From an uncultured Clostridia bacterium (lineage in GTDB: Bacteria > Bacillota > Clostridia > RUG12999): a stretch of DNA of 34,240 nucleotides. Position 1 is the stretch's first letter. Each line of letters opens with the position of its first letter. Below the pieces are notes generated by a model, which was given only the letters and a program-made list of their open reading frames with translations, had not been told where the DNA came from and made no database searches. Positions 2,461 through 23,171 of this stretch are shown here, in pieces. Location of the stretch: contig CAMNSU010000017.1 in NCBI GenBank assembly GCA_946555455.1, positions 1-34,240 on the forward strand, read 5' to 3'. The position numbers were made by a program, and so were the translations under genes.

Positions 2461-2489
2461 TTGACAAATTTTATGCGGGCTGCTATAAT
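2461..2489 (+). promoter_or_regulatory. Perfect-consensus sigma-A promoter with extended -10
   Basis: TTGACA (2461-2466), a 17-base spacer, then TATAAT (2484-2489), with TG two bases before the -10 box (2481-2482). All twelve hexamer positions match consensus, the strongest promoter in the window. Start is expected near 2496. There is no good ORF directly after it; the next gene (tetR) starts 260 bases away behind a terminator-like hairpin, so it probably drives a small RNA or a long leader. Confidence 0.8.
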
Positions 2490-2495
2490 TAGGAA

Positions 2496-2606
2496 CAAGA
2501 GATGGACTCAAATAGGATAGTGTAAAAAAACATAGGCAGACATGTTCAGAGCAGTGGGTGGTATCCAGCAAAATGATGTTGCAGAAGGAGAACCACTTAT
2601 TTTTTT
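2496..2606 (+). ncRNA. Candidate ~110-nt structured non-coding RNA
   Basis: The stretch runs from the expected start of the perfect promoter to a seven-T tract at 2600-2606. It contains a hairpin AACAT (2529-2533)/ATGTT (2542-2546), and a longer terminator-like fold in which GTGGT (2558-2562) pairs with ACCAC (2592-2596), enclosing an inner GCAA/TTGC stem. No convincing coding frame is present. I do not recognise it as 6S, SRP, tmRNA, a T-box or a known riboswitch. It could be a trans-acting small RNA or an attenuated leader of tetR. Folding and conservation were judged by eye only. Confidence 0.4.
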
Positions 2607-2617
2607 CACTACAATAT

Positions 2618-2633
2618 AACTAAACGGTTAGTT
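2618..2633. promoter_or_regulatory. Palindromic operator, copy 1 (upstream of tetR)
   Basis: AACTAA-ACGG-TTAGTT, 16 bp. A second copy, AACTAA-ATAG-TTAGTT, lies at 3601-3616 before the next operon, and both are followed by TGTGA. Length and symmetry fit a TetR-family dimer site, and its place directly before the tetR gene suggests autoregulation. Confidence 0.7.
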
Positions 2634-2636
2634 TGT

Positions 2637-2678
2637 GATTTCTAAATAAATTTTTAGAAATCGTAGATTGTTTTTTTT
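2637..2678 (+). other. Hairpin with downstream T8 tract in the tetR leader
   Basis: GATTTCTAA (2637-2645) pairs perfectly with TTAGAAATC (2654-2662). Eight bases later comes a run of eight T (2671-2678). The gap makes it a poor classical terminator. The T run overlaps the possible -35 box of the tetR promoter. It may be a weak attenuator, or simply AT-rich promoter DNA. Confidence 0.35.
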
Positions 2679-2695
2679 AATAAGTGTGATAAAAT
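2668..2695 (+). promoter_or_regulatory. Possible tetR promoter
   Basis: TTGTTT (2668-2673), a 16-base spacer and TAAAAT (2690-2695) preceded by TG (extended -10). It is the nearest promoter-like pair to the tetR start at 2749 and lies about 35 bases downstream of the operator palindrome. Confidence 0.4.
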
Positions 2696-2748
2696 GGTGT
2701 AGAAAAAGAGAATTAAAAATTGTAAAAAAGGATAGGAAGTGATGTTTT

Positions 2749-3411
2749 ATGGAAGGAAATGCAATCAGGACAGAAGCCGGCAGTCAAACGCGCAGACGAG
2801 TGCGCAACAGTGCGGTTGCAAAAGCAAAAATTCTGAAAGCGGCGGAGGACGAATTTGCAAACAATGGTCTTTCCGGTGCAAGAATAGACACGATTGCACT
2901 CGCATCAGGGTATAACAAAAGCCTTATTTATCAATATTTTGGAAACAAAGAAAAGTTATATGAAGTGGTGATTTATAATACCTATTCTAAATTGTCGGAA
3001 GTGGAGCAAGTCATTATTTCAAAAGAGCTGGGGTATGAAGAAAGCGTTGCAATGATTGTGCAGTGCTATTTTGAATTTCTAAAGGACAATCCCAACTTTG
3101 TGAAATTGATTATGCACGAGAACTTGAATCAAGGGAAATATATTGCCGCAAGCGGTTCGCTGCGCGTCAAAGACCCCATGCTCCGAGCGCTGAAAAAAGT
3201 TGTAGAAGCGGGAAAAAGCGAGGGCGTGTTCAACGAGAGCGTTGATGAAACACAGGTCTTGATTTCCTTGATAACCGGTTCGTTTTCCTATTTTTCTAAT
3301 ATCTATACGTTGTCTCAGGTATTACATATTGATTTGTCAGAAGAAGAGAATAGAAAGAAGCGAATGAAGTTTGTAACGGAATCTATTTTAAACTATCTGC
3401 GTAATGGGTGA
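2749..3411 (+). CDS. TetR/AcrR-family transcriptional regulator
   Basis: 220 residues, with AGGAAG nine bases before ATG 2749. Residues ~22-72 form the TetR DNA-binding domain: an A-K-I-L-K-A-A-E-D-E-F-A-N-N-G helix, then D-T-I-A-L-A-S-G-Y-N-K-S-L-I-Y-Q-Y-F-G-N-K-E-K-L-Y, with the classic Y-x-Y-F-x-N-K-E-x-L-Y ending of the recognition helix. The remaining ~145 residues are the helical ligand-binding and dimerisation part; the ligand cannot be read from sequence. The 16-bp palindrome before this gene and again before the dehydrogenase/transporter operon makes it the likely local repressor of both. An inducer derived from the transported glycan is a reasonable guess. Codon use resembles its neighbours. 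Confidence 0.9.
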   Translation: MEGNAIRTEAGSQTRRRVRNSAVAKAKILKAAEDEFANNGLSGARIDTIALASGYNKSLIYQYFGNKEKLYEVVIYNTYSKLSEVEQVIISKELGYEESVAMIVQCYFEFLKDNPNFVKLIMHENLNQGKYIAASGSLRVKDPMLRALKKVVEAGKSEGVFNESVDETQVLISLITGSFSYFSNIYTLSQVLHIDLSEEENRKKRMKFVTESILNYLRNG

Positions 3412-3479
3412 GGAAAAACCGTATTTACCTTTGTCAAGTGATGGTAATAAAACGGATATATACACGAAAGGAAAGGGAT

Positions 3480-3527
3480 ATGCTGGGAAAACAGGAGGAT
3501 TTGTTCATGAAAACAACATCAGGATGA
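3480..3527 (+). CDS. Possible 15-residue leader ORF
   Basis: ATG 3480 preceded by AAAGGAAAGG, reading M-L-G-K-Q-E-D-L-F-M-K-T-T-S-G before TGA. An internal ATG (3507) has its own AGGAGG eight bases upstream. Two good ribosome binding sites on such a short frame are unusual, but no family is recognised and it may be the remnant of a deleted gene. Confidence 0.2.
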   Translation: MLGKQEDLFMKTTSG

Positions 3528-3545
3528 AATATGTGATATCATGAA

Positions 3546-3567
3546 GAAAACATGTTTTCCTAGGAAA
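3546..3567. repeat. Two overlapping perfect palindromes
   Basis: GAAAACATGTTTTC (3546-3559) and TTTCCTAGGAAA (3556-3567) share four bases. They could form alternative hairpins after tetR or be a protein-binding site upstream of the operator. No U tract follows directly. Confidence 0.5.
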
Positions 3568-3600
3568 TAAAGAGACGAAAAAATTTTTTTGGCATAAATT

Positions 3601-3616
3601 AACTAAATAGTTAGTT
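3601..3616. promoter_or_regulatory. Palindromic operator, copy 2 (upstream of the transporter operon)
   Basis: AACTAA-ATAG-TTAGTT. Over 21 bases (3601-3621) it differs from the copy at 2618-2638 at only two central positions, so symmetric arms and the TGTGA flank are kept. A TTGGCA (3589-3594) just upstream could be the -35 box of a promoter that this site would cover. Confidence 0.7.
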
Positions 3617-3660
3617 TGTGAATGATGAGTAAATTAAGGGAAATATATGGAAAATTTTTG

Positions 3661-3689
3661 TTGAAAGTATAAAATTAGAACGGTACATT
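3661..3689 (+). promoter_or_regulatory. Candidate promoter of the dehydrogenase/transporter operon
   Basis: TTGAAA (3661-3666), a 17-base spacer and TACATT (3684-3689), placing the start about 30 bases before ATG 3726. The -10 box matches only four of six positions, so a promoter overlapping the operator at 3601 is an alternative. Confidence 0.4.
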
Positions 3690-3725
3690 GGAGAGAGGGT
3701 CAAACCTGTAGTGAGGGGTGAAGTT

Positions 3726-4724
3726 ATGCTGAAATTATTGGTTACAATACCAAATGGTTCTATTAAAGACAGCTTTGTTCCATATGAGGTGCGTGAACGT
3801 CTGGAAAAGCTGTTTGACGTGACCTATAACGAAGGAACAGAGCATTATTCCGAAACGGAATTAAAAACGCTGTTAATGGGAAAAGACGTTGTCCTCACAG
3901 GCTGGGGAACGCCAAAACTAACAGAACACGTGCTTGCAGGAAACGATACGTTGAAAATCATTGCCCATGTCGGCGGTTCAGTGGCAGCTATTGTAGATGA
4001 CTATGTCTATGAAAAAGGGATTCGGGTGCTGAGCGGCAATGAAATATATGCGGAGTCAGTGGCGGAGGCTTGCATAGCCTATGCACTGACCGCGCTGCGG
4101 CGGATACCGGATTATCTTGCGGTCACAAGAGCCGGCGGCTGGCGGGCGGAAGATTCTTTGTGGGAGGGGTTGCTTGGTCAAACGGTCGGACTGGTCAGCT
4201 ATGGAATGATTACCAAACATTTTGTGAGAATGCTGCAACCGTTTTCACCCAAGATAAAAGTCTATTCTTCCCATCTGGACGAAGCAGAGTTAAAGAAGAA
4301 CCACATGGAAAAAGCGTCTCTTGCAGAAATTTTTGCAACCTGCAAAGTCATATCCATTCATTCCGCGCTGACGGAAAAAACCTATCACATGATTGATGAA
4401 CCGCTGCTGCAAAGCATTCAGGACGGCGCAGTGCTGATAAACACGGCACGGGGCGGCGTGATTGACGAAGCGGCGCTTGTGAAAGAATTGAAAAAAGGCC
4501 GGTTTCGGGCAGTTTTGGATGTTTATGAACAGGAACCTTTGCCGCCGGAACATCCTTTGCGCAGTATGCAAAATGTATATCCCATTCCGCACATGGGCGG
4601 TCCAACCTATGACAGAAGAAAAGTGGTAACGCAGCGGCTTGCGGACGACATTTTGCGTATTCAAGGCGGAGAATCCCCCGAACTGGAAATCAGCCGAAGT
4701 TATGCTGTGCACATGACAAAATAA
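3726..4724 (+). CDS. D-isomer-specific 2-hydroxyacid dehydrogenase family protein
   Basis: 332 residues from ATG 3726, with AGGGGTG six bases upstream; GTG 3711 is in frame but would swallow this site. The family reduces 2-keto acids to D-2-hydroxy acids with NAD(P)H in the cytoplasm. The catalytic triad is present and correctly spaced: Arg242 in N-T-A-R-G-G, Glu270 in Y-E-Q-E-P-L-P, His289 in P-H-M-G-G. The nucleotide-binding loop is odd: the usual G-x-G-x-x-G is replaced by S-Y-G-M-I-T in V-G-L-V-S-Y-G-M-I-T-K. It leads the operon, 61 bases before the first permease, and probably handles an acid released from the imported sugar. Whether it still binds NAD in the standard way is uncertain. 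Confidence 0.85.
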   Translation: MLKLLVTIPNGSIKDSFVPYEVRERLEKLFDVTYNEGTEHYSETELKTLLMGKDVVLTGWGTPKLTEHVLAGNDTLKIIAHVGGSVAAIVDDYVYEKGIRVLSGNEIYAESVAEACIAYALTALRRIPDYLAVTRAGGWRAEDSLWEGLLGQTVGLVSYGMITKHFVRMLQPFSPKIKVYSSHLDEAELKKNHMEKASLAEIFATCKVISIHSALTEKTYHMIDEPLLQSIQDGAVLINTARGGVIDEAALVKELKKGRFRAVLDVYEQEPLPPEHPLRSMQNVYPIPHMGGPTYDRRKVVTQRLADDILRIQGGESPELEISRSYAVHMTK

Positions 4725-4785: not shown

Positions 4786-5700
4786 ATGACAAAATGCAGA
4801 GAATTTTTTCACGGACTGCGGCGTGATTGGCAGTTGGTGCTGCTGGTACTGCCGGGCGTGATATTTTATTTGATTTACAGATATTTGCCAATGTATGGTT
4901 TGATTATTGCGTTTAAGGATTATGGTATTTATACAGGAATTCACGGAAGCCCATGGGCAGGGCTGAAATATTTTCAGGAATTTTTCTCCTCCGGAGACTT
5001 TTTTCTGCTCTTTAAAAACACCTTGCTAATAGGGGTCTACAGTTTGCTTTGGTCGTTTCCGTTTCCGATTATTTTAGCGATTTTGCTAAATGAAATGCGG
5101 CTGAAATCATTTAAAAAACTGGTGCAGACGGTCACGTTTCTCCCCTCGTTTTTATCAACAGTCGTTGTCTGTTCCATGGTGATTGATTTTCTTTCGCCCA
5201 GCACCGGCATCATCAACACCATCATAAAAGCCTGCGGCGGGGAACCGATTTATTTTATGACAAAACCGGAATGGTTCAGAACCATCTACATATCGTCCGG
5301 CATTTGGCAGCAAACAGGATATAACGCCGTGATTTATCTGGCGGCGCTGACCAGTCTTGACGCCAGTCTGCTGGAGGCGGCGGAAATAGACGGCTGCGGG
5401 AGACTGAAAAAAATCTGGTATATTGTGCTGCCAAGTTTAATGCCCATCATTACCATTATGTTTATTCTGAATTCAGGAAATATCTTTAAAGCGGCGCAGG
5501 ATAAAATGCTGTTGTTATACAATCCGGCGACCTATTCCGTATCCGACATTTTCTCAACGTTTACCTATCGGAAAGGTATCGTGGAGAACAACTATAGTTA
5601 TTCCACCGCGGTCGGATTCTTTGAAGCCATGGTTTCGTTGATTGTTGTCACAGTCACGAATTATGTGAGTAAGAAAATGAATGATACGAGTTTGTGGTAA
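4786..5700 (+). CDS. CUT1-type ABC sugar transporter permease, LplB-like
   Basis: 304 residues. AAAGGAT/AGGA lies eight bases before ATG 4786. About six hydrophobic membrane segments start with L-V-L-L-V-L-P-G-V-I-F-Y-L-I-Y. The cytoplasmic EAA loop that contacts the ATPase is clear: L-E-A-A-E-I-D-G-C-G-R-L-K-K-I-W-Y-I-V-L-P. The R-Y-L-P-M-Y-G-L-I-I-A-F-K-D-Y near the N-terminus is typical of LplB-type permeases, which pair with a YtcP-type permease and import complex oligosaccharides. The partner permease follows at once. No ATPase gene is nearby, as expected where a shared MsmX-like ATPase serves several importers. Confidence 0.93.
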   Translation: MTKCREFFHGLRRDWQLVLLVLPGVIFYLIYRYLPMYGLIIAFKDYGIYTGIHGSPWAGLKYFQEFFSSGDFFLLFKNTLLIGVYSLLWSFPFPIILAILLNEMRLKSFKKLVQTVTFLPSFLSTVVVCSMVIDFLSPSTGIINTIIKACGGEPIYFMTKPEWFRTIYISSGIWQQTGYNAVIYLAALTSLDASLLEAAEIDGCGRLKKIWYIVLPSLMPIITIMFILNSGNIFKAAQDKMLLLYNPATYSVSDIFSTFTYRKGIVENNYSYSTAVGFFEAMVSLIVVTVTNYVSKKMNDTSLW

Positions 5701-5713
5701 GGAGATGAGAAGA

Positions 5714-6571
5714 ATGAAACGAAAAATAACGGTTTTTGATTGTGTCAATTTTTTGATTTTGTCAGCGGTTCTTTTCATCACCATTTACCCGCTGTGGTAT
5801 GTGCTGTGTATTTCGCTCAGTTCCACAGAGATGATTAACAGCGGAACCGTAACGCTATATCCGAAAGGATTTAATTTTGCCGCGTATAAACAGATTTTCG
5901 GGACGTCTAAAATCCTGCGTGCCTATTCCAATTCGGTGGTATATACTGCGATTGGTACGATGTGCTGTATGGCAATGACGATTGTGTTTGTCTATCCGCT
6001 TTCCCGAAAAAACTTTGTGCTGCGCAAACCCATTACCGTCCTGATTACCATCACATTATATTTTACCGGCGGATTGATTCCGACTTTTTTGGTGGTGCAG
6101 GGAACCGGACTGCTGGACTCCATGTGGAGCCTTATCATTCCAAACATCATATGGACGTTTGACGCCATTTTGCTGCGCAACTTTTTTGAAGGTGTTCCGG
6201 CAGAACTGCATGAGGCGGCAATTATAGACGGCGCGAATGAACTGAAAATTTTAATGAAGATATACATTCCGCTTTCCACATCAGCGCTTGCAACCATTGC
6301 TTTGTTCTATGCAATGGGGCAATGGAACAGCTATTTGCTGCCGTCCATCTATATCACATCTTATGAAAAATTACCGCTGCCGGTTATTTTGCGCGACATG
6401 TTGATGGAGGACACCAATTCCAATCCCAATTCCATTGCAAGCGGTCAAATCACGCCGGAAGCGCTGAAAAATGCAACAATGTTTGTCTCTATTTTACCGT
6501 TTTTGATATTTTATCCCTACTTACAGAAATATTTTGTAAAAGGACTGACCATGGGAGCAGTCAAAGGCTAA
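5714..6571 (+). CDS. CUT1-type ABC sugar transporter permease, YtcP-like
   Basis: 285 residues from ATG 5714. The AAGGAG site (5699-5704) overlaps the stop codon of the previous permease, so translation is probably coupled; ATG 5705 lies inside this site's spacing and is less likely. About six membrane segments, beginning with F-L-I-L-S-A-V-L-F-I-T-I-Y-P-L-W-Y. The EAA loop reads E-L-H-E-A-A-I-I-D-G-A-N-E-L-K-I-L. The C-terminal P-Y-L-Q-K-Y-F-V-K-G-L-T-M-G-A-V-K-G is the standard ending of this family. It forms the membrane channel as a heterodimer with the upstream protein. Confidence 0.94.
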   Translation: MKRKITVFDCVNFLILSAVLFITIYPLWYVLCISLSSTEMINSGTVTLYPKGFNFAAYKQIFGTSKILRAYSNSVVYTAIGTMCCMAMTIVFVYPLSRKNFVLRKPITVLITITLYFTGGLIPTFLVVQGTGLLDSMWSLIIPNIIWTFDAILLRNFFEGVPAELHEAAIIDGANELKILMKIYIPLSTSALATIALFYAMGQWNSYLLPSIYITSYEKLPLPVILRDMLMEDTNSNPNSIASGQITPEALKNATMFVSILPFLIFYPYLQKYFVKGLTMGAVKG

Positions 6572-6584
6572 TATTACGGTGGTA

Positions 6585-6606
6585 CGCAGGCAGTGATAGC
6601 CTTGCG
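6585..6606 (+). other. Stem-loop between permease and solute-binding protein genes
   Basis: CGCAGGC (6585-6591) pairs with GCC-T-TGCG (6599-6606) with one bulged T. No T run follows, so it is not a terminator. In many sugar-importer operons such hairpins stabilise the mRNA segment for the abundant binding protein; that role is inferred here. Confidence 0.35.
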
Positions 6607-6651
6607 AAAAAATAAATGATATCGGAAAGAAAGATTAAAGGAGGAATTTTT

Positions 6652-8226
6652 GTGAAAAAGTTTTGGGTTGTAACATTGGCGGTAGCAATTTTTGCTTCCA
6701 TACTGACAGGCTGCGGACAGAAACCGGCGGGAGAACAAATAAGCGATATTGACGTTGCGGCGCTCGGTGATTTGGGCGGTTTGGAAATGCCGCTGGACAA
6801 CAAAAACACTAAAATTACCTGGATAGTTGCTTCCGGTGTGGAAGGATTGAACGACAAATATGCTATGCAGGCACTGCGCAGCATCACAGGCGTGAACGTG
6901 CAGCTCGAAGTATATCCGTTGTCCACAGTGAACGACAAAGTGAAGGTTTTGTTTGCATCCAAAAACCTGCCGGATATTATCGGTTCAGGCATTGCAACCA
7001 TGACGGAAATCAACGACTATGGCGTGCAGGGAGCGTTGGCATCTGTAAATGACAATTTAGACGTTATGCCAAACTTCAAGAAAATTTTCAAGGATAATCC
7101 GGAAAACGATTGGGTATTCAAATCCTATCAGGCAGGGGACGGCAAATTATATGCAATGCATGGCTATGACATAAACCGCGACGTCAACCATGGCGTGCTC
7201 TACCGGAAAGACATTTTTGACAAACATGGAATCGAAATGTGGAACAGCCCCGAGGAGTTTTATCAGGCGCTGAAAAAGCTGAAAGAAATTTATCCGGATT
7301 CCCACCCGTTTACGTCCAAAAACGGCGACGGTATCTTTGACAAACTTGCAACAAGCTGGGGCATTGATGTTTCCAAGGCGGCTTACTATAACGAGGACGA
7401 AAAAATTTGGAAAAGCAGCATCACCAGTCCGGAATATAAAGATGAACTGGACTATCTCAAAAAACTCTATGACGAAGGTTTGATTGACTCTGAATTTTTA
7501 ACGCTCACACAAGCGCAGTGGACGACCAGAATGACACAGGAAAACGTCAGCTTTGTCACATGGGACTGGATTGGCAGACTGGATATGTTCAAAGCGCAGA
7601 CGGCGGAAAGCGTTCCGACCTATGATTTGCGCTACGGCAATCCCATTGGGCCGAAACAGACTGTTGCAACACTGCCGAAAGTGTTCTTCCCCATCACCGT
7701 TTCAAATGGCAAAAACACCAAACTCGCCTGCAAACTGGTAGATTTCTTCTATTCTGACGCAGGGCGTGCGTTTGTTTCCATGGGCGTCCCGGGAGAAACT
7801 TATAACATCAACGACAAAGGCATTGCAGACTATGTGGGTTATGAGAGCGGACAAAAAATTGAAATCACGGAACTCGAAGAAAAATATGGTCTGTATATTG
7901 AAGGCATGTACAGAGGATTTGACCGCCGCTCCAGCTATTTCCAGTTCTCCGAACGGGAGCAGGAGGCACAGGACTATTTTACACAGGAAGGCAGAATGGA
8001 ACCGGAAGACCCGATTCCACTGTTTACAGAAGAAGAACAAAATGAAATCACGAAATATCAGACCAATTTAATGACTGCCTGCAAGGAATTTTCAACAAAC
8101 TACATTCTTTCCGGTAAGACCGGCGACGCGGCTTGGAGCGAATGGGTAGCGAAAGCGGACGGACTTGGCTGCGGCAAAATTGTAGAAATCTATAATGCGG
8201 CGCAGAAGCGGTATGACGCGCAGTAA
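6652..8226 (+). CDS. Extracellular solute-binding lipoprotein of a CUT1 sugar ABC transporter
   Basis: 524 residues from GTG 6652, fixed by AAAGGAGG seven bases upstream (6637-6644); the open frame further upstream has no ribosome binding site. Residues 1-20 are a lipoprotein signal peptide: M-K-K-F, a hydrophobic core, then L-T-G-C, so Cys20 is the predicted lipid anchor. The body is a family 1 solute-binding protein of LplA type, with K-V-K-V-L-F-A-S-K-N-L-P-D-I-I and V-L-Y-R-K-D-I-F-D-K-H-G-I. It captures oligosaccharide at the outer face of the membrane for the two permeases encoded just before it. The ligand is unknown; the neighbouring lyases suggest unsaturated uronic-acid oligosaccharides. 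Confidence 0.93.
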   Translation: MKKFWVVTLAVAIFASILTGCGQKPAGEQISDIDVAALGDLGGLEMPLDNKNTKITWIVASGVEGLNDKYAMQALRSITGVNVQLEVYPLSTVNDKVKVLFASKNLPDIIGSGIATMTEINDYGVQGALASVNDNLDVMPNFKKIFKDNPENDWVFKSYQAGDGKLYAMHGYDINRDVNHGVLYRKDIFDKHGIEMWNSPEEFYQALKKLKEIYPDSHPFTSKNGDGIFDKLATSWGIDVSKAAYYNEDEKIWKSSITSPEYKDELDYLKKLYDEGLIDSEFLTLTQAQWTTRMTQENVSFVTWDWIGRLDMFKAQTAESVPTYDLRYGNPIGPKQTVATLPKVFFPITVSNGKNTKLACKLVDFFYSDAGRAFVSMGVPGETYNINDKGIADYVGYESGQKIEITELEEKYGLYIEGMYRGFDRRSSYFQFSEREQEAQDYFTQEGRMEPEDPIPLFTEEEQNEITKYQTNLMTACKEFSTNYILSGKTGDAAWSEWVAKADGLGCGKIVEIYNAAQKRYDAQ

Positions 8227-8280
8227 GTAAAAGGCAGTTTTAACAGAAACAGTGACGAAAAAGAAAGGAAACGGTGAGTG

Positions 8281-10806
8281 ATGATGAAAAAACGAATCGC
8301 CCTCTTGTGTACAGTATTCGTTCTTCTTGCCGCGATAACACCGGCGGCGTTTGCCGCGGACAATTTCTCCATGGACGACATTCGTTTTGGCAGTGAACAA
8401 AAATTTGACCCCATTTTATATAGTACCAATGTTGTGCGCTGTGCGACTACCGTTCAGGACGGACATCCAATTGCGCTGTCCGTAGTTGGAGGTTCGCCTT
8501 GCAGCGTACTTAGCGTGGTGGATTTAGTGACGGGAAAACGGATTGCGGAATTTGACCTGAAAGGGCAAACCGCAACCTCATGGCAGATGGAAACGGACAG
8601 CAAAGGGAATGTGTGGATAGGCACCTATTATAAATGCCATGTCTATAAATATTCGCCCCAGACCAAAACACTGACCGATTTGGGAAGTCCGTTTGGTGAA
8701 AGTGCGGTAATCGCCATGACGATTGACGATAACGATAATGTGTGGATAGGCACTTTTACCAATGCAAAGATTATTAAAATTGACGGTGAAACGGGCGCGA
8801 TGACGGACTATGGCAATGTGAAATCGGGCGAACAGTATGTTTATAATCTTGCAGCGTATAAAAATAAATTATATTATGCCTGTTCCAATGATACACAGCT
8901 TTATGAGTTTGACCCTGCTACGCGGCAGTCGACGCTCATTCCGTTTCCGGAAAATGGTATTACAACCAACAACAAAACGTCGCTCTATATCAGAGATAAA
9001 TATGCAATCTGTGTCGGAGACGGCGGAGATATTCAGTGCTATGATTTGGAAAACAAAACATGGACGGAAAAGATAAAAGCAAAGTGGTACGGGAATGTGA
9101 CGTCGCCGCTGATGGACGGTAAAGTCTATTTTGCCAATGGAAAATGTATTGCGGCGTTGCAGCTCAGCGACATGACCATCACGGAACTGACCGGCTTAAG
9201 CTGGGGATCTTACCTGCGGGGAACGGCAACGGCTTATGGACTGATTGAACTGGACGATCCGGATTTTCCGGGACTGTCCTATGTCACCTCGCAGTATTCG
9301 GGCGGACTTTATGTCATGAATTTCCAGACGCAGAAAATGAAAGAATATCAGGACACACTCAAAGGCGTTGCGACAGAAACGCGAATGGGGATTTTTGGTC
9401 CGGACGGCAGATACTATGTGGGTGAATATATGGGAACGAAAGCGGCTGCCATGGACATTAACACGGGCGCAGTAGAACTTTTCCATATGGCGCAGCCGGA
9501 GGGCGCCACGGTGCTGGGCGACAAAATGTATTTTGGAAATTATACCGGCTCTACTTTGTATATTCTGGATACAAAAAAGAAATATTACCGAACCAGCGCA
9601 CCCAACGACCCAAATAACAATCCGCGCATTTGGGGTTCCACCGGCGCACATATGGATAGACCCTTTGCGATGGAGCCCTGCGGAGACAAAGTGGCAATGG
9701 GCGGTATTCCTGACTATGGATATCTTGGCGGCGCGCTGACAATTTACGACCCGGAAACGGATAAATGCGACGTTTATGAAGGACTGGTGAAAGACCAAGC
9801 GTTTATCGACATAGCGTATCACGACGATAAGTTATATTTAACCACCACTGTGTCGGGCGGACTTGGTAGTTTCCCGACCCAATCACAGGCGAAGGTTTTG
9901 ATTTTTGACATGAAAACCCGCAAAGTCATTCAGGAAAAAGATTTGAAAATTCCGGGCGTGAACTCTATTTTAGCAGTAGAAAGTATTTCTGTCGCGCCGG
10001 ACAACACATTGGTCGGTTACAGTAGTGGCGGCGGATTTATCTACAAACTGAATATGGAAACGCTGGAACTGCTGGACTATAAAGTCTTTAATAAAAGCGC
10101 GTCCTATGGCGATGGTTCACATGTATGGTCGCCAGGCAATATCAATTATGACGCGAAAACCGGCTATGCATATGTCTGTTTGAATGGGAATCTGACGATT
10201 TTAGACCCTGTTACGCTGGACTACAAGAAAACCGATTTGAGTTTTTCGGAGGGCGGCACGCTCGGACCGGACGGGAACCTGTGGTATCTTAGCCATGATT
10301 ATCCTACAAAGATTCCGGTAGTGCGCGGCGATGACCAATCCTATCTGTTGGACGGCTGCACATTTATGAAGGTGGACGGCGCTGTAGCATTTATTAACGG
10401 CAATCCGACCACAGTGGACGCACCCTATAAAACAGCGGCGGGAACCGTGATGGTTTCGGCAAAACTAGCCGCACAGCTTTGCGGCTATAAGGTCAGCGAG
10501 AACAATCCGGCAGGACAGATTATTTTGTATAATGGCGAAACAAAAATTAAGATTCGTGCAAATGAACGCGACATTTATGACAACAATCAGATACTGCGCG
10601 CGGTTTCACCTTTTGAAGCGAAGAACGGAAAAATCTATATCAGCACAGGGCTTGTGAGAGAACTGCTGCATACGGATATTTATCTGACAGAGGACGGTCT
10701 GATTGTGATGGGAAGCAAGGCTTCCACGGCAATACAAAGTGCGGAAACACTGAAGTATGCGATGCAGATGTTGAACGCGCAAAACAACGTGTCGCAGGAG
10801 CAGTAG
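8281..10806 (+). CDS. Secreted beta-propeller protein with a C-terminal copper-amine-oxidase-N-like domain
   Basis: 841 residues. GTG 8278, ATG 8281 and ATG 8284 are all possible starts; ATG 8281 is chosen with AAAGGA eleven bases upstream. A signal peptide ends near A-A-F-A. The body (residues ~45-690) has recurring propeller-blade motifs such as G-N-V-W-I-G-T-Y-Y-K and D-N-V-W-I-G-T-F-T-N, each followed by a strand of the K-I-D-G-E-T-G-A type, resembling SMP-30/virginiamycin-lyase-like and YncE-like propellers. The last ~120 residues (from about 695) match the copper amine oxidase N-terminal stalk domain (V-D-G-A-V-A-F-I-N-G-N-P), common in secreted Clostridia proteins and thought to be a surface attachment or interaction module. 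It probably binds or processes a glycan at the cell surface; enzymatic activity is not proven. Confidence 0.75.
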   Translation: MMKKRIALLCTVFVLLAAITPAAFAADNFSMDDIRFGSEQKFDPILYSTNVVRCATTVQDGHPIALSVVGGSPCSVLSVVDLVTGKRIAEFDLKGQTATSWQMETDSKGNVWIGTYYKCHVYKYSPQTKTLTDLGSPFGESAVIAMTIDDNDNVWIGTFTNAKIIKIDGETGAMTDYGNVKSGEQYVYNLAAYKNKLYYACSNDTQLYEFDPATRQSTLIPFPENGITTNNKTSLYIRDKYAICVGDGGDIQCYDLENKTWTEKIKAKWYGNVTSPLMDGKVYFANGKCIAALQLSDMTITELTGLSWGSYLRGTATAYGLIELDDPDFPGLSYVTSQYSGGLYVMNFQTQKMKEYQDTLKGVATETRMGIFGPDGRYYVGEYMGTKAAAMDINTGAVELFHMAQPEGATVLGDKMYFGNYTGSTLYILDTKKKYYRTSAPNDPNNNPRIWGSTGAHMDRPFAMEPCGDKVAMGGIPDYGYLGGALTIYDPETDKCDVYEGLVKDQAFIDIAYHDDKLYLTTTVSGGLGSFPTQSQAKVLIFDMKTRKVIQEKDLKIPGVNSILAVESISVAPDNTLVGYSSGGGFIYKLNMETLELLDYKVFNKSASYGDGSHVWSPGNINYDAKTGYAYVCLNGNLTILDPVTLDYKKTDLSFSEGGTLGPDGNLWYLSHDYPTKIPVVRGDDQSYLLDGCTFMKVDGAVAFINGNPTTVDAPYKTAAGTVMVSAKLAAQLCGYKVSENNPAGQIILYNGETKIKIRANERDIYDNNQILRAVSPFEAKNGKIYISTGLVRELLHTDIYLTEDGLIVMGSKASTAIQSAETLKYAMQMLNAQNNVSQEQ

Positions 10807-10827
10807 AAATTCAGGAGGTGAAAAGAA

Positions 10828-13491
10828 ATGAACCGGAAAAAATTTATGGCGTTGCTGACAGCGGCTGCCCTTGTGATTGGTATGATGATGGTTCCTGTTT
10901 CAGCAGCGAAAGACGGCGGCAGTTTCTATATTGATGCAGTTTGGTCGCTTGGCATTATGGAAAGCGACAATACAGACAGCTTTTTGCCGGAGGAATCGGT
11001 GGAGCGAATTGACGCGGTGAAATACATATTGAATTTCATGAACATCAAACAATACAGCGGCGACGGGCAGCGGCATTTTACGGATGTTTCAATCTATAGT
11101 GACTATTATGCGCTCACCACGGCGGCAATGCAGGCAGGTATTATTATCGGCAATACGAACGGCGAGTTCCGTCCGAATGATGAAACAAGCGTGGACGAGG
11201 CGCTGGTGATGATGCTGCGCGCAATGGGCTATGATAAATTGGCGAACGCCAGAGGCGGTTCAGTGGCGGCATATTGGGACGTGGCGCGGCAATATGGATT
11301 TTTGAAAGGGATATCGGTAAGCGGCGCCTCCATCACGCGCGGAGACATGGCACGCCTGTTTTATAATGCGTTTGACATTGGCATGATGGAATATACCACG
11401 ATTGGCACACAAAATACAATCGGCGTGAACGACGACCGGAAAGGTCTCAGCAGACTGGGGCTGAAGATGGGAGAAGGCACACTCACAGCAAACCCGATAT
11501 CATCTGTTTATTACACGGCAAAGCGTGCGGCAAGCGGATATGTGGAGATTGACGGCAATGAATACCGCATCGGCGCTTCCGGCGCAGACAAGTATTTGGG
11601 ATACCATGTGGAGTTTTATTATGCATGGGACGAAGATGATGAAAACACGGGAGAGATTGTGCTTATCTATCCCAAACGCAATGAAACGCTGATTTGTTCT
11701 TTGGAGGAAGGCAGTTTTTTGGTGGACGGCAGCGCGTTATACTATACGGCGGATAACAATGGAAAGAAAACCAGAATCGATATCAGTCCGGAAAGCGTTA
11801 TCATCAAAAACGGCGTGAGCGTACCCTATGATTTAAGCTTTTTTGAAAATGCACCTGCCGAAGGCAGCGTCACGTTTGTGAAAACCGGTAATAGCAGCTT
11901 TTATAATGTGGTGGAGATTTACGCAGTGTTAAATGATGTGGTACGTGGACTTGACACAGAAGCAGGTAAGCTGGAACTAAAATTCGGCGGTACTGTCAAT
12001 CTGCCGGAAAAACATCTCGGCGGCACCATTTTTGTGACGAAAAACGGCGAACCGGCGGAACTCGGCGACGTGAAAAGCGGCGACGTCATTTCCTATTCCA
12101 TAGATGAAAACAGCAGGTCAATGACCATGGCGCTTTGTGACACGCAGATATCGGGCGCGATATCCGAAATCAATTTTGAGGGCGGACGCTTGCAGGTAAG
12201 CATTGGCGGAAAACGTTATTTGATTGACAACGTATACTTTGGCGCGGATGCAAAAAATCTGACGCAGGAAGTTTGTGAACGATATAATATTAAGCTGGGA
12301 AACAACGTGGTTGGATTTGTAAGCGGGAGCGGCAGTATCGTAGATTTGGAACTGAAAAGTGTCCGAAATTATGGATTCGTGCTGGAGGCAGGCATACATT
12401 CCTCTCTTTCGGAAAAAGTGGAAGTGAAACTGTTCACTACGGCGGGCGACGCCGCTATTTATGAACTTTCGGATAAGCTGAAAATAGACGGCAGCACCAC
12501 AAAGAACTTAACATCTTTGGAAATTTGTGCAAGACTCAAAGGGCAGACGGAAATCATTGCCTATGAACTGGACAGCAGCGGCAAAATTTCTGAATTGCTG
12601 TTCCCGCAGGAACCTTCCGGGAATTTATATGCGGATCAGGGGAGATTTGTCCGTGTCCATACCGTTACAACGTTGTCGGTATGCTCAGGCATTACATTAG
12701 ACGGTATCGGTATGGAAAACACGCAGTTGTTTACGATACCAAATGCGGCAGCGGGAACCGCTATTGACGAGGACGACTGTGAATGCGGCAAATTGGAAAG
12801 ACAGACGAATTATAAAGACATTGTTTTTTATGACGTCGGTCTTAACGGCATGGCAGCCGTTGCACTGCGCCGCGCGGCAGCGAACAGCGGTTACCAAAAT
12901 ATACCGGTGAAATGTTATGTTGTCCGCAACGTAACGCCTGCTGTACAGCCGGACGGCGAGAGCGGCTATAAACTAAACTATATGTCGGGCGGCGCGGAAG
13001 GAAGTGTGTTCCTTGCAGACAATATCACCAATCTTTCCACCAACGCAAATAACAGTATCCACGCAAGGGATTTGCAATTTGGCGACATCATTGTTTTTGA
13101 AGCGGATAAGCACGGCAAAATGAAACGGTTTTCCGTATTATACCGCGAGGAAAATCAGAAAAACGAAACAGGTATCATCAATCTCACAGGCGACGGTGTA
13201 GGCAACAACCGTGCATGTTTGGTGCTAAAAGGAACCGCGCAGTATATCAGCGGCGATAACCTGACTGTGAAATATCTGTCGAGCGGCGGCAGAGCCAATT
13301 ATGAACTATTCACCGGATTGAATGCACAAACAGTCACGGTTGTGAACATGAAAGAGAAAAAGTTTGAGACGCGGGAAATCAGCAGTATTCTCCCAACAAC
13401 CTTCAGCCTGACAGGAGAAACGCCGGGCGATACGATTATTGTGAACGCAAACCGAAATGCACTGAATGAGGTGATTGTATATGAAGATTAA
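10828..13491 (+). CDS. Cell-surface protein with N-terminal S-layer homology (SLH) repeats
   Basis: 887 residues; AGGAGGTG precedes ATG 10828. A signal peptide ends near V-S-A-A. Residues ~28-185 contain three SLH-type units, the clearest being H-F-T-D-V-S-I-Y-S-D-Y-Y (about 83-131) ending in G-E-F-R-P-N-D-E-T-S-V-D-E-A. SLH units bind secondary cell-wall polymer and hold the protein on the wall. The remaining ~700 residues look beta-rich with many G/D/N turns and contain short repeated strand patterns. No catalytic domain is recognised. It sits between the propeller protein and the large repeat protein, and its end overlaps the next gene by 11 bases, so the three are probably made together as a surface complex. 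Confidence 0.7.
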   Translation: MNRKKFMALLTAAALVIGMMMVPVSAAKDGGSFYIDAVWSLGIMESDNTDSFLPEESVERIDAVKYILNFMNIKQYSGDGQRHFTDVSIYSDYYALTTAAMQAGIIIGNTNGEFRPNDETSVDEALVMMLRAMGYDKLANARGGSVAAYWDVARQYGFLKGISVSGASITRGDMARLFYNAFDIGMMEYTTIGTQNTIGVNDDRKGLSRLGLKMGEGTLTANPISSVYYTAKRAASGYVEIDGNEYRIGASGADKYLGYHVEFYYAWDEDDENTGEIVLIYPKRNETLICSLEEGSFLVDGSALYYTADNNGKKTRIDISPESVIIKNGVSVPYDLSFFENAPAEGSVTFVKTGNSSFYNVVEIYAVLNDVVRGLDTEAGKLELKFGGTVNLPEKHLGGTIFVTKNGEPAELGDVKSGDVISYSIDENSRSMTMALCDTQISGAISEINFEGGRLQVSIGGKRYLIDNVYFGADAKNLTQEVCERYNIKLGNNVVGFVSGSGSIVDLELKSVRNYGFVLEAGIHSSLSEKVEVKLFTTAGDAAIYELSDKLKIDGSTTKNLTSLEICARLKGQTEIIAYELDSSGKISELLFPQEPSGNLYADQGRFVRVHTVTTLSVCSGITLDGIGMENTQLFTIPNAAAGTAIDEDDCECGKLERQTNYKDIVFYDVGLNGMAAVALRRAAANSGYQNIPVKCYVVRNVTPAVQPDGESGYKLNYMSGGAEGSVFLADNITNLSTNANNSIHARDLQFGDIIVFEADKHGKMKRFSVLYREENQKNETGIINLTGDGVGNNRACLVLKGTAQYISGDNLTVKYLSSGGRANYELFTGLNAQTVTVVNMKEKKFETREISSILPTTFSLTGETPGDTIIVNANRNALNEVIVYED

Positions 13492-16400
13492 AAGAACCAT
13501 TTCCAGAGGCGCTTTTGCGATATTGGCGGCAATGCTGCTCATGCTTGTGCCGGCACCTCCCAGCAGTACCATAGCGGCAGAGGACGACGTGATTTTTACG
13601 ATTGACAACATTCGGTTAAACAAAGGCGGCACAGAAATTGCACAGCTACAGGACGGCGCTGTCGCTGTGAGCGCGGACGTGACAAATCATTCGGAAGAAA
13701 GCTATACGCCGCTGCTGATGGCGTTTGCCTGCATTGGACAAAGCGGCGCGGAGGACATCGACCGGTTTATTATCCACGATACGGACGATAACGCTGCGAC
13801 CACCTTTGCGGCGGGTGAAAGCAAACGAATCACCTTCAACGTGACTGTGAAAGACGCGGCAAACTCTTTTATCAAAATTGTGGCGGCGGAAAGTTTAAGC
13901 AGCGGCAAGCTGTTGTCGGAGCAGACGTATTATGACCCCACATGGGCGGTGAAACTGCAATCTTTGACAGTTGCAGGCGCGGCAGTGGAGGACTTTGACC
14001 CTGATGAAATGCAGCGCACCATAAAGCTTGCTGCCGGTGTTACATTTCCGCTGGAGATAGAGGCGACAGCAGCATTTGACGGCGCGGCGGTGAAAGTTTC
14101 CAGTCCAGCGTCCATTGAAGATACGCTGACGGTGGAGGTGTCCTGCGGGACGCTGCCCGTGAGTACCTATGTGTTTGATTTGATGTGGCAGCCACGCGTG
14201 GAATTTACAAACTACCGGACAGAAGGGACTATTCCGACAGCAAGCGAAATTACGGTTGTAGATGATTTTCAGGGCGGACAACGCTGGAATAACAACAATA
14301 TAGCGTGGGAAGCAGATTCTATTCCGGATTATTTGAAGGGTACGACCTATATTCGTACGAATTATCTTGACAATCCGACTGATGCAAAGGATTTGAATGC
14401 GAATATAGACAACAAGCTGTTTACCATGACTCTTACGCAAAGCGCAACGGTTTATCTTGCAACGTGGTCTACCTATGTGAGCGGTTCTTGTCAGAGATTC
14501 GTAGCCGGCTGGGAAAGCGCCGGAGCGCAGTGGATGAATAATAAACAGCCGGTGAGCCTTACAACAAGTGATCCCAGAGGACAATGGAAAACAGTTTATT
14601 TGGTGAAACGGGAATTTAAAGTGCCGGAAGGCGGCAGTGTCAATATTGATTTCACGGTACCCGGCAGCAGTTATAATATCTCCATGTATTCCATGTTTAT
14701 CGACTGGGCAGATGAAACGGAACCAACGCCAACTGTAACGCCGACCTCCACGCCGGATTCAGGAAAGGGAACCGTGACCTTTACAAACTATCGGACAGAG
14801 GGAACTGTTCCGGCAGAAAATGAAATGACGGTAGTGGAAAATTTCAGCGGCGGACTGCGCTGGAACAACAGAAGTGACGTCAGTTGGAAAGAAGATACCA
14901 TACCGGAGTATCTAAAGGGTAAAACCTATATCCGCACAAACTATCTTGACAATCCCTCCGATTCACCGGATTTGAATGCAGACGGCAGCAAACGGTTGTT
15001 TACCATGACGCTTGACAAAAGTGCAACTGTGTATTATGTAACATGGTCTACCTATGCGGCTAACAGTTGTCAGAGAATGGTAAACGAATGGGTAAGCAAG
15101 GGCGCGGAGTGGTTAAACAATAAAGAGCCGGTAAGTTTTACGACAAACGGCTCCGGTGATCAAAAAACGAAAGTCTATCTGTTAAAACGGACGTTTGAAG
15201 TGCCGGAGGGAGAGACGTTGGACATTGATTTTCTGGTGCCTGCTAGCGGCTACAGTGTTTCTATGTATTCCATGTTTATTGACTGGGCGGATGAGACAGA
15301 ACCGACGCCGACACCAACTGTAACGCCGACCCCAACACCGGATTCGGGGAAAGGAATCGTGACATTCAAAAATTATGCGCAGGAAGCAACCTATCCGGCA
15401 GCGGACAATATCACGGTAGTGGAAAACTTCAGCGGCGGAAAACGTTGGAACAACAGCGATATAGAGTGGGTGACAACTTCCATACCGGATTATTTAAAAG
15501 GCACAACCTATATCCGCACAAACTATCTTGATAATCCCAGCAATTCACCGGATTTGAATGCGAATATAGATAACAAGCTGTTTACAATGACCATCAATAA
15601 AAGCGCAACGGTTTATCTTGCAACATGGTCAACTTATGTGAGTGGTTCCTGCCAGAGATTTGTAGCCGGATGGGAGAGCGCCGGAGCAGAGTGGATGAAT
15701 GGCAAACAGCCGGTAAGTCTGACCACAAATGATTCGCGAGACCAGCTAGGTAGAGTTTATCTGGTGAAACGGACGTTTGAAGTGCCGGAGGGCGAAACGC
15801 TGGACATTGATTTCACAGTACCTGGCAGCAGTTATAGTATCGGTATGTATTCCATGTTTATTGATTGGGCAGATGAAGAGGAACCGACGCCGACGCCAAC
15901 TGTAACGCCGACCCCAACACCGGATTCCGGAAAGGGAACCGTGACCTTTACAAACTATCGGACAGCGGGAACCATTCCGACAGAGAGTCAAATGACGGTT
16001 GTGGAGAACTTCAGCGGCGGACTGCGCTGGAACAATATGGATGTACAGTGGGACGCAGCTACGATTCCGGACTATTTGAAGGGCACAACTTATATCCGCA
16101 CAAACTATGCGGATAGTCCACAGAGTGGGGACACTACAGCGGCAGAGCTAAATGCAGTGGGAACCAACCGGTTGTTTACCATGAGACTGAACAAGAGTGC
16201 AACGGTATATTATGCCACATGGTCTCCCAATACATGGGGTACCTGTCAGACCATGGTGAGCAGCTGGCAAAGTGCAGGAGCAGAGTGGGTCAATAATAAG
16301 CAGCCGATTAGTCTGACGATAAGCGGCGGCGATACCAGAGGACAGCGGAAAGACGTTTATCTGTTAAAGCGGACGTTTGAAGTGCCGGAGGGCGAAACGC

Positions 16401-18331
16401 TGGACATTGATTTCACAGTGCCCGGCAGCAGTTATAATATTTCTATGTATTCCATGTTTATCGACTGGAATGTGGAGACGGAACCGACTCCCGCACCGGT
16501 GATTCCAACTGTGACAATTAAAGATTATGCACAGGAGACAACCTATCCGGCGGCGGACAATATTACGGTAGTGGAAAACTTCAGCGGCGGACTGCGCTGG
16601 AACAACCGCGACATTATCTGGAACGAAGATACCATACCGGAGTATCTAAAGGGCACGACCTATATCCGCACAAACTATGCGGACAATAAAGATAATGCGC
16701 CGGAGTTAAACGCAAATGGCGGCAATAAACTGTTTACAATGACCATCAACAAAAGTGCAACGATATACTATGCGACATGGTCAACTTATGTGAGCGGAAA
16801 TTGTCAGAAGATGGTAGGTGATTGGAAAGCGGCAGGCGCAACATGGATAAACAATGGTGAGGTATTGGAGTTTACTTCAAATGGGGCGGACGGCATGAGA
16901 AAAAATTGTATCCTTTTGAAACGAGAGTTTGAAGTGCCGGAAGGCGAGACGTTGGATATTGAATTTTTGGTACCGGGAAAAGATTATGGTGCATCTATGT
17001 ATTCCATGTTTATTGACTGGGCAGACGAAGCGGCTGCAAATGAACCGGAGACACAAAGTTTGTTCCGCGTTTCGCTTGGTATGCCGGTCTATGCAGCGGA
17101 AACGGGAAACGCAGATTATGCTATTAAAAACGGCACGGCATATGTCACAGGACAGGGGGCAGGCGGAAGAAAAATATTGGTTGAAGTATTCAAACCGGGC
17201 ACAAATGCGGCTGAAAGAACGCCTGACGATTTGCTATACTACCATGTGGTACCGGCGGACGAAACGGGTGGTTTTGAAGCAGCAGTGCCGCTCAGCATGG
17301 CGGATACAACAGGGAAATTTCCATATACTATCTATACGCAAAATGAAACAATCTTCACAAAAACGGAAACGATTGACTATGACCCAAGCGGCGACTCCAG
17401 CATAACGGTATTTTCACTCGGTGGAAAGACCGGCACGATTAACGGAAACAACATTTCTGTCACCGTTGACGCAAATACCAATGTCACAGGGCTGATTGCC
17501 ACGTTCACAGCAGGCAGAAATGCTGAAGTAACGGTGAACGGCGCAGTGCAAATCAGCGGACAGACCAGAAACAATTTCACGAATCCGGTTGTCTATACCG
17601 TGACGGCAGACGACGGAACACAGACGCAGTATACCGTAACCGTGACAAAGAGCGGCGGCGTATCGGGCGGCGGTATGTCCGGCGGCGGTGGCGGCGCTTC
17701 GGGCGGCAGAGGAACCGGCGGCGCTTCCTATACGGAGGTTCCAAACTTTAGCGCGAATCAGACAATACCGAACCGGAACGGCGTGCAGCTTTTTGCTGAC
17801 GTCGATGGCAGCCACTGGGCATATGACTATATTGATTGCCTGCTTGCAAAGAAAATTGTTTCGGGATATGAGGACGGCGCGTTCAGACCGGACAGCAATA
17901 TCACAAGAGAAGAATTTGTGAAAATTGCAGTAGAAGCGTTTGCCATTGTATCGGACAGCAGCGGGGCAGCGTTTGAAGATGTACAAAACGGTGCATGGTA
18001 TGAATATTATGTGCAGACGGCAGCGGGTGCAGGGATTGTCAATGGAATAGATGAAACGCACTTTGGTACCGGTGAGATGGTGACGCGTCAAGACCTTGCT
18101 GTGATGATAGCAAGAGTGATAGAAGCGGAGAATATTTCCATTAAAGCGATAGAAAACGCACCCACATTCACCGATGAAGCGGACATTTCCGGCTATGCGC
18201 AGGAAGCGGTGAAAAAGCTTGCAGCGGCAGGAATATTGGGCGGTTATGCAGACGGCAGTTTCAACCCGAACGGTATTGCAACGCGAGCGGAAGTATGCGC
18301 GATTCTTTACAGAATGATAAACGGAAGATAG
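13481..18331 (+). CDS. Giant SLH-anchored surface protein with five ~190-residue repeats
   Basis: 1616 residues from ATG 13481, with GAGGTGA six bases upstream; it overlaps the previous gene by 11 bases. Order: signal peptide (to about residue 34); a beta-rich N-terminal region (to ~239); five homologous modules starting near residues 240, 432, 627, 821 and 1011, mostly joined by Pro/Thr linkers (E-P-T-P-T-P-T-V-T-P-T type); an Ig-like segment (~1195-1305); a beta-sandwich with S-S-I-T-V-F-S-L-G-G-K-T-G-T (~1306-1390); a Gly-rich hinge; and three C-terminal SLH units from ~1438, 1498 and 1563 (each with the G-F/Y-x-D-G-x-F-x-P pattern or a variant). SLH units anchor it to the wall. The modules resemble, distantly, the Y-I-R-T-(N/A)/T-V-Y-x-A-(T/Y) jelly-roll units appended to lyases and glycosidases, so multivalent glycan binding is a plausible role. 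No catalytic domain is seen. Confidence 0.8.
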   Translation: MKIKRTISRGAFAILAAMLLMLVPAPPSSTIAAEDDVIFTIDNIRLNKGGTEIAQLQDGAVAVSADVTNHSEESYTPLLMAFACIGQSGAEDIDRFIIHDTDDNAATTFAAGESKRITFNVTVKDAANSFIKIVAAESLSSGKLLSEQTYYDPTWAVKLQSLTVAGAAVEDFDPDEMQRTIKLAAGVTFPLEIEATAAFDGAAVKVSSPASIEDTLTVEVSCGTLPVSTYVFDLMWQPRVEFTNYRTEGTIPTASEITVVDDFQGGQRWNNNNIAWEADSIPDYLKGTTYIRTNYLDNPTDAKDLNANIDNKLFTMTLTQSATVYLATWSTYVSGSCQRFVAGWESAGAQWMNNKQPVSLTTSDPRGQWKTVYLVKREFKVPEGGSVNIDFTVPGSSYNISMYSMFIDWADETEPTPTVTPTSTPDSGKGTVTFTNYRTEGTVPAENEMTVVENFSGGLRWNNRSDVSWKEDTIPEYLKGKTYIRTNYLDNPSDSPDLNADGSKRLFTMTLDKSATVYYVTWSTYAANSCQRMVNEWVSKGAEWLNNKEPVSFTTNGSGDQKTKVYLLKRTFEVPEGETLDIDFLVPASGYSVSMYSMFIDWADETEPTPTPTVTPTPTPDSGKGIVTFKNYAQEATYPAADNITVVENFSGGKRWNNSDIEWVTTSIPDYLKGTTYIRTNYLDNPSNSPDLNANIDNKLFTMTINKSATVYLATWSTYVSGSCQRFVAGWESAGAEWMNGKQPVSLTTNDSRDQLGRVYLVKRTFEVPEGETLDIDFTVPGSSYSIGMYSMFIDWADEEEPTPTPTVTPTPTPDSGKGTVTFTNYRTAGTIPTESQMTVVENFSGGLRWNNMDVQWDAATIPDYLKGTTYIRTNYADSPQSGDTTAAELNAVGTNRLFTMRLNKSATVYYATWSPNTWGTCQTMVSSWQSAGAEWVNNKQPISLTISGGDTRGQRKDVYLLKRTFEVPEGETLDIDFTVPGSSYNISMYSMFIDWNVETEPTPAPVIPTVTIKDYAQETTYPAADNITVVENFSGGLRWNNRDIIWNEDTIPEYLKGTTYIRTNYADNKDNAPELNANGGNKLFTMTINKSATIYYATWSTYVSGNCQKMVGDWKAAGATWINNGEVLEFTSNGADGMRKNCILLKREFEVPEGETLDIEFLVPGKDYGASMYSMFIDWADEAAANEPETQSLFRVSLGMPVYAAETGNADYAIKNGTAYVTGQGAGGRKILVEVFKPGTNAAERTPDDLLYYHVVPADETGGFEAAVPLSMADTTGKFPYTIYTQNETIFTKTETIDYDPSGDSSITVFSLGGKTGTINGNNISVTVDANTNVTGLIATFTAGRNAEVTVNGAVQISGQTRNNFTNPVVYTVTADDGTQTQYTVTVTKSGGVSGGGMSGGGGGASGGRGTGGASYTEVPNFSANQTIPNRNGVQLFADVDGSHWAYDYIDCLLAKKIVSGYEDGAFRPDSNITREEFVKIAVEAFAIVSDSSGAAFEDVQNGAWYEYYVQTAAGAGIVNGIDETHFGTGEMVTRQDLAVMIARVIEAENISIKAIENAPTFTDEADISGYAQEAVKKLAAAGILGGYADGSFNPNGIATRAEVCAILYRMINGR
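14198..17030 (+). repeat. Five tandem ~570-585-bp coding repeats
   Basis: Units begin at about 14198, 14774, 15359, 15941 and 16511; the last ends near 17030. Every unit keeps V-V-(E/D)-(N/D)-F-x-G-G-x-R-W-N-N, then Y-L-K-G-x-T-Y-I-R-T-N-Y, a single Cys-Gln, and ends S-M-Y-S-M-F-I-D-W. Units 1 and 3 share their middle part (L-A-T-W-S-T-Y-V-S-G-S-C-Q-R-F), while units 3 and 5 share a different start (Y-A-Q-E-x-T-Y-P-A-A-D-N), so the copies look shuffled by recombination. Confidence 0.9.
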
Positions 18332-18429
18332 ATGACAATAGTTGAAAAAGACAACCTATATCAATTGTCCGGCGGTGGTATGAAAACAAGGCAGCGTAGA
18401 TTTCTTTGTTTCATGATGCGAAATGAATT

Positions 18430-18468
18430 CACTCCATTCAAAGGCGGTGTATGCCTTTGAATGGAGTG
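18430..18468. terminator. Perfect 16-bp stem-loop after the surface-protein gene
   Basis: CACTCCATTCAAAGGC (18430-18445), a 7-base loop, and its exact reverse complement (18453-18468). It lies about 100 bases after the stop codon and 40 before the next gene. There is no T tract on either side, so termination may be partial, or it may protect the mRNA end. No clear promoter is visible for the downstream gene. Confidence 0.5.
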
Positions 18469-18508
18469 GATATAGAAAAAAACAGTGAAAGGAAGCAACA
18501 GGAAGAAT

Positions 18509-19732: not shown

Positions 19733-19748
19733 AGGAGCGTAGGTAAGC

Positions 19749-21047: not shown

Positions 21048-21050
21048 ACC

Positions 21051-23155: not shown

Positions 23156-23171
23156 AAAGAAGGAAAACAGC

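Follow-up and report, generated by a model that had tools for sequence, protein, structure and literature searches.

A TetR-family regulator (2749-3411) in a Clostridia bacterium in all likelihood binds two copies of one palindrome, represses both its own gene and the operon that starts at 3711, and would be released by a small molecule of the pathway that it controls. We use "the window" for the whole stretch of DNA that was analysed (34,240 nucleotides). Sequence comparison establishes the two sites, their uniqueness in the whole genome, their conservation, their tie to a TetR subfamily and the fact that the same families of targets recur beside them; the predicted role of the palindromes as operators is very well supported. 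This is a genuine control circuit, ordinary in kind, in a gut-type Clostridia bacterium, and the regulon is conserved and apparently undescribed.

The palindrome pair and the regulator

The palindrome AACTAA-N4-TTAGTT occurs at 2618-2633 and 3601-3616, where the sequence-only reading had correctly placed it, with exact arms. The features concerned are:

2618..2633, no strand assigned: operator 1, AACTAAACGGTTAGTT, 5' of tetR, with exact palindromic arms
2749..3411, + strand: TetR-family regulator of 220 aa, with TetR_N and TetR_C_29 above the Pfam cut-offs
3601..3616, no strand assigned: operator 2, AACTAAATAGTTAGTT, 5' of the 2-hydroxyacid dehydrogenase/transporter operon

Operator 1 ends 115 bases before the ATG of tetR (2749); the corresponding distance for operator 2 is 94 bases, to the GTG (3711) that starts the downstream operon's first gene. 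As had been claimed, the surrounding 21-base blocks, AACTAAACGGTTAGTTTGTGA and AACTAAATAGTTAGTTTGTGA, are identical at 19/21 positions and differ only in the centre, where the dinucleotide is CG in one and TA in the other, each self-complementary. This identity runs one further T leftward.

The palindrome pair is confirmed as real and far beyond chance. Markov simulations of the window (200 sequences at order 1 and 200 at order 3) yielded a pair of 6-4-6 inverted repeats with common arms and at least 19/21 identity in 1/200 and 0/200 sequences, respectively. Since the arms are A+T-rich and 6-4-6 inverted repeats number 15 in the window, a fortuitous duplication in A+T-rich intergenic DNA could be suspected; however, such an origin is barely credible given a single match in 400 simulations, and it is already refuted by conservation, since the sites are kept in three species and related sites are found in other genera.

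In the whole genome (3,125,272 bases), AACTAA-N4-TTAGTT has two exact copies, both at the tetR locus. No copy with exactly one mismatch was found in these 3.125 Mb, and 49 copies have two mismatches. With up to two mismatches allowed, the motif gives 51 matches and the reversed pattern, a control that is poor for composition, gives 311; weaker genome sites cannot be separated from background. A regulon dispersed over the genome is ruled out as far as exact and one-mismatch copies are concerned, the exact motif being confined to one locus. Hence, the prediction that the motif would also precede other glycan genes was not borne out, exact copies being present at these two places only.

In each of the three congeneric genomes (G000, G001 and G002), the pattern TAACYAANNRGTTAST is matched exactly twice, each time at the tetR locus, and its reversed control is matched in none of them. 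When the two intergenic regions of the window genome, G001 and G002 are aligned, the arms of both sites are invariant and the centre of site 1 varies (ACGG, ATAG and ATGG). The TGTGA flank also varies among congeners, reading TTTGA and TATGA in G001, and was therefore rejected as a part of the operator.

The regulator itself has the features of its family: an N-terminal helix-turn-helix, an all-helical C-terminal domain and a palindromic putative operator near its own gene. It scores 43.4 bits with the TetR_N helix-turn-helix (PF00440, cut-off 24) and 91.5 bits with the C-terminal ligand-domain family TetR_C_29 (PF17938, cut-off 26.2). Its AlphaFold2 model is all-helical (mean pLDDT 91.5), with helices at residues 46-53 and 57-64, the latter (KSLIYQYF) being the recognition helix. 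It resembles the autoregulators of the TetR, QacR and AcrR type in its TetR_N helix-turn-helix and in having a short palindromic putative operator upstream of both its own gene and an adjacent transporter operon. It differs from them by its TetR_C_29 ligand domain and by its predicted targets, which are catabolic enzymes and a binding-protein importer instead of an efflux pump. The nearest solved or curated relatives are RutR of E. coli and FadR of Bacillus, which share the overall fold (TM-scores of about 0.75 and 0.70) with 18-19% identity. However, their targets differ from those of the window system, and their operators differ from the one described here. The protein also falls below the NCBIfam cut-offs of both equivalogs (38 versus 368 for RutR, 47.5 versus 200 for FadR).

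A shared operator family and its half-site variant

Relatives of this TetR with 31-50% identity are found in Clostridia, spirochaetes, Alphaproteobacteria and Pseudomonas, and the orthologous genes of other genera have related palindromes just 5' of their own start. Acetivibrio sp. MSJd-27 (L096) is among the relatives with the operator. A matrix was built from 24 sites located upstream of tetR, with a consensus close to AGTAACYAANNRGTTACTTA. It detects 105 sites in the 1.27 Mb that surround 79 relatives versus 14 positions for the reversed matrix, the training set overlapping in part the scanned loci and the sites distant from tetR, as well as all Pseudomonas sites, lying outside it. Strong sites are present at 48/59 Clostridia/spirochaete loci and 15/20 proteobacterial loci; they lie within 400 bases before tetR at 38 of the 77 loci that have upstream sequence. 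The window sites score 24.7 and 18.9 bits on the matrix, and the window has the marks of the AGTAACYAANNRGTTACTTA family, i.e. TAAC and GTTA cores at a fixed spacing beside a tetR of the TetR_C_29 type. What the window carries is one lineage's variant of an operator family that is older and widely conserved. The sequence-only reading had announced a new TetR regulon: the regulon does appear to be undescribed, a search of a literature library on the operator strings or TetR_C_29 having returned no paper, but its motif is a variant of this widely conserved family.

The tie between TetR and the sites comes from sequence, which leaves some room for the palindromes to be sites of another regulator that flank tetR by accident, or RNA hairpin elements. 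We consider this very improbable. Related sites track the TetR subfamily over Clostridia, spirochaetes, Alphaproteobacteria and Pseudomonas, no exact copies exist elsewhere in the genome, and the half-site variant described below coincides with a change in the recognition helix. Moreover, A+T-rich arms of just 6 bases make poor hairpins.

The recognition helix reads NKSLIY in the genus of the window and at one spirochaete locus (L078), NKR[ML]IY in nearly all relatives and NKQL in a few. GTTAC is found at neither end of the five matrix sites of the NKSLIY group nor of the two window sites, and it forms an end of 50/51 sites at the other (NKR-type) Clostridia/spirochaete loci. The spirochaete locus L078 even holds, on the reverse strand, a 16-mer identical to operator 1 of the window. 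These data are suggestive of a link between the TTAGTT variant and the change from NKRM to NKSL in the recognition helix, and they go no further than that since the change is seen in two lineages and six proteobacterial sites also do without GTTAC, most of them with an NKRM helix.

A broader scenario, which we put forward tentatively and as somewhat less probable than not, is that this TetR subfamily is undescribed and shares a single ancestral operator, AGTAACYAANNRGTTACTTA. In Clostridia and spirochaetes it would control a likewise undescribed catabolic module (serine dehydratase, M20 amidohydrolase, epimerase-like, DHDPS-like and 2-hydroxyacid dehydrogenase); in Pseudomonas its targets would be acyl-CoA genes unrelated to that module. 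In the genus of the window and in one spirochaete, two substitutions in the recognition helix (R58 to S and M59 to L) would have accompanied a shift of the operator arm from GTTACT to GTTAGT, and DNA specificity would thereby have changed in nature.

Other arrangements of sites were observed among the relatives. For instance, locus L080 carries three sites (9496, 9633 and 9772) between tetR and a divergent Gfo/Idh gene, two of them identical and 139 bases apart and the third weaker.

Promoters and direction of control

Upstream of tetR, the following elements were found:

2461..2489, + strand: consensus promoter TTGACA-17-TATAAT, 12/12 matches with TG, conserved in both congeners
2553..2606, + strand: stem-loop then T run, possible terminator or attenuator, between the 2461 promoter and operator 1, conserved in congeners
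2610..2615, + strand: TACAAT (TATAAT in G001), a possible -10 box that adjoins operator 1 with the spacing of the relatives' consensus promoters

In many clostridial relatives, no more than a few bases separate the start of the operator from the -10 box of a promoter resembling TTGACA-17-TATAAT, a layout seen before tetR and also before target genes. This adjacency is the geometry of a repressor and argues for repression. It also lends support to the earlier proposal of an autoregulated TetR operator, since the tetR genes of orthologues are preceded by related palindromes, often right after a consensus -10. In the window, the box at 2610..2615 has no -35 match, and no clear promoter was found for operator 2 at the spacing seen in relatives. 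Since the window operators come without a clear consensus promoter at that spacing, we infer their mode of action from the relatives.

TetR could also bind both sites and activate, or both activate and repress, the 3711 operon. In favour of this, operator 2 is not overlapped by any consensus promoter, and a conserved -10-like TATAAAAT follows about 50 bases 3' of it (near 3668-3676). However, many clostridial relatives have the operator right after a strong -10, target genes included, which makes this alternative unlikely, although activation or a roadblock at the window operators is still conceivable.

With repression as the favoured reading, TetR would bind both palindromes as a dimer or paired dimers. 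At operator 1 it would repress its own gene and at operator 2 the operon from 3711, until a small molecule of the pathway releases it. The operon would probably extend to about 24056, with genes for a transporter of the binding-protein type, for surface proteins and for a catabolic module made up of the 2-hydroxyacid dehydrogenase, serine dehydratase, M20 amidohydrolase, DHDPS-like aldolase, epimerase-like and Gfo/Idh proteins.

The promoter at 2461, about 130 bases 5' of operator 1, and the stem-loop that follows it (fold of -15.5 kcal/mol, z -1.74) could together (2461-2606) be an attenuator upstream of tetR or specify a small RNA. No Rfam family reaches its gathering score in this region. 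The upstream genes (heparinase II/III-like, 281-2248) close with a strong terminator-like hairpin at 2305-2334.

The target genes in the window and in relatives

All main genes from 3711 lie on the + strand, up to the end of a Gfo/Idh oxidoreductase gene at 24056:

3711..4724, + strand: D-isomer-specific 2-hydroxyacid dehydrogenase (PF02826, PF00389), first gene past operator 2
4786..8226, + strand: two ABC permeases and a solute-binding protein (PF00528 in the first permease; PF13416 and PF01547 in the binding protein)
8278..18331, + strand: three large exported proteins, two with SLH domains, in identical order in G002
18485..24056, + strand: serine dehydratase, M20 amidohydrolase, NAD epimerase-like, DHDPS-like and Gfo/Idh genes, in an order kept in G002

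In the second permease, PF00528 is below the cut-off, and NCBIfam classes this protein as GlcU/UgpE-like. Gene order matches that of the congener G002 up to the point where the G002 locus stops, inside the Gfo/Idh gene. The proposal that the transporter operon is a target gains support from both sites being kept in three congeneric genomes.

The genes at 18485..24056 probably belong to the same + strand transcription unit. The 153-base gap 5' of the serine dehydratase gene (18332-18484) contains an inverted repeat of 16 bp, at which the operon might be divided, but this repeat has no + strand T run, so read-through is possible. The M20 frame (19749-21047) is broken by two in-frame TAG codons (window 20700-20729); since G002 has the same gap between two matching M20 pieces, the break may predate the species.

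Among the exported proteins, the SLH-anchored one encoded at 13475-18331 (1618 aa) contains about five repeats that resemble one another (WNN..YLKGTTYIRTNY..MYSMFIDWADE), with TPTPTVTPTPT linkers between them.

Clustering of the neighbouring genes indicates that the families of this + strand run recur at TetR/operator loci: DHDPS-like at 24 loci, epimerase-like at 23 (one of them proteobacterial), 2-hydroxyacid dehydrogenase at 11, M20 at 7, serine dehydratase at 6 and permeases at 6-7. Epimerase-like and DHDPS-like genes are adjacent in 21/59 Clostridia/spirochaete loci. The families of the 18485..24056 genes recur beside TetR and operator in L053, L065, L070, L078, L080 and L098. For instance, L053 and L065 have an operator followed by M20, epimerase, DHDPS, serine dehydratase subunits and TetR, and L070 has the same arrangement minus M20. 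In L098, one operator is followed by genes for a surface protein, a Gfo/Idh-like protein, a 2-hydroxyacid dehydrogenase, a binding protein, two permeases and TetR, then by epimerase-like, DHDPS-like and GH20 genes. Related sites also lie 5' of a 2-hydroxyacid dehydrogenase cluster in L079 and L094, and other loci carry Gfo/Idh, a PreA/GltD-like fusion or creatininase. Since the same families recur beside TetR and operator elsewhere, the 3601 site probably controls the run of about 20 kb.

The targets of the relatives are thus amidohydrolases, creatininase, serine dehydratase, DHDPS-like aldolase, Gfo/Idh and 2-hydroxyacid dehydrogenases, and glycan enzymes are only some of the neighbours. Our guess is a route for amino-sugar acids or other N-acyl compounds, prompted by the presence of an amidohydrolase, of deaminase-type and aldolase-type enzymes and of a neighbouring GH20 gene. 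Comparison of the DHDPS-like and epimerase-like proteins with solved structures gave weak matches only and did not provide the identity of the pathway. The ong oxidative chitin pathway of Pseudoalteromonas, which includes a D-aminoacylase-like deacetylase, a PLP-dependent deaminase and a MurR/RpiR regulator (PMC9537276), offers at most a possible metabolic analogy, in that an amino sugar acid is deacetylated, deaminated and split by aldol cleavage under the control of a repressor. It is ruled out as a homologue by its different enzyme families (PMC9537276), the window having M20, serine-dehydratase and TetR families.

Pseudomonas loci carry another set of neighbours: CoA-transferase, acyl-CoA dehydrogenase, aldehyde dehydrogenase and periplasmic binding protein. 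In L109 (6431, 9846 and 12307), as well as in L112, L114-L116 and L119, three operator-like sites surround tetR and precede the periplasmic binding protein gene, the aldehyde dehydrogenase gene and a divergent CoA-transferase/acyl-CoA dehydrogenase pair. This three-site regulon is apparently undescribed.

Hence, an anonymous TetR and about 20 kb of poorly annotated genes become a testable regulon with a defined operator. The paired change in helix and half-site would offer a natural test of how TetR regulators shift their DNA specificity. Furthermore, the motif predicts the targets of TetR proteins of the same subfamily in dozens of uncultured Clostridia and in Proteobacteria, and the enzymes that recur together suggest a catabolic pathway that is as yet uncharacterised.
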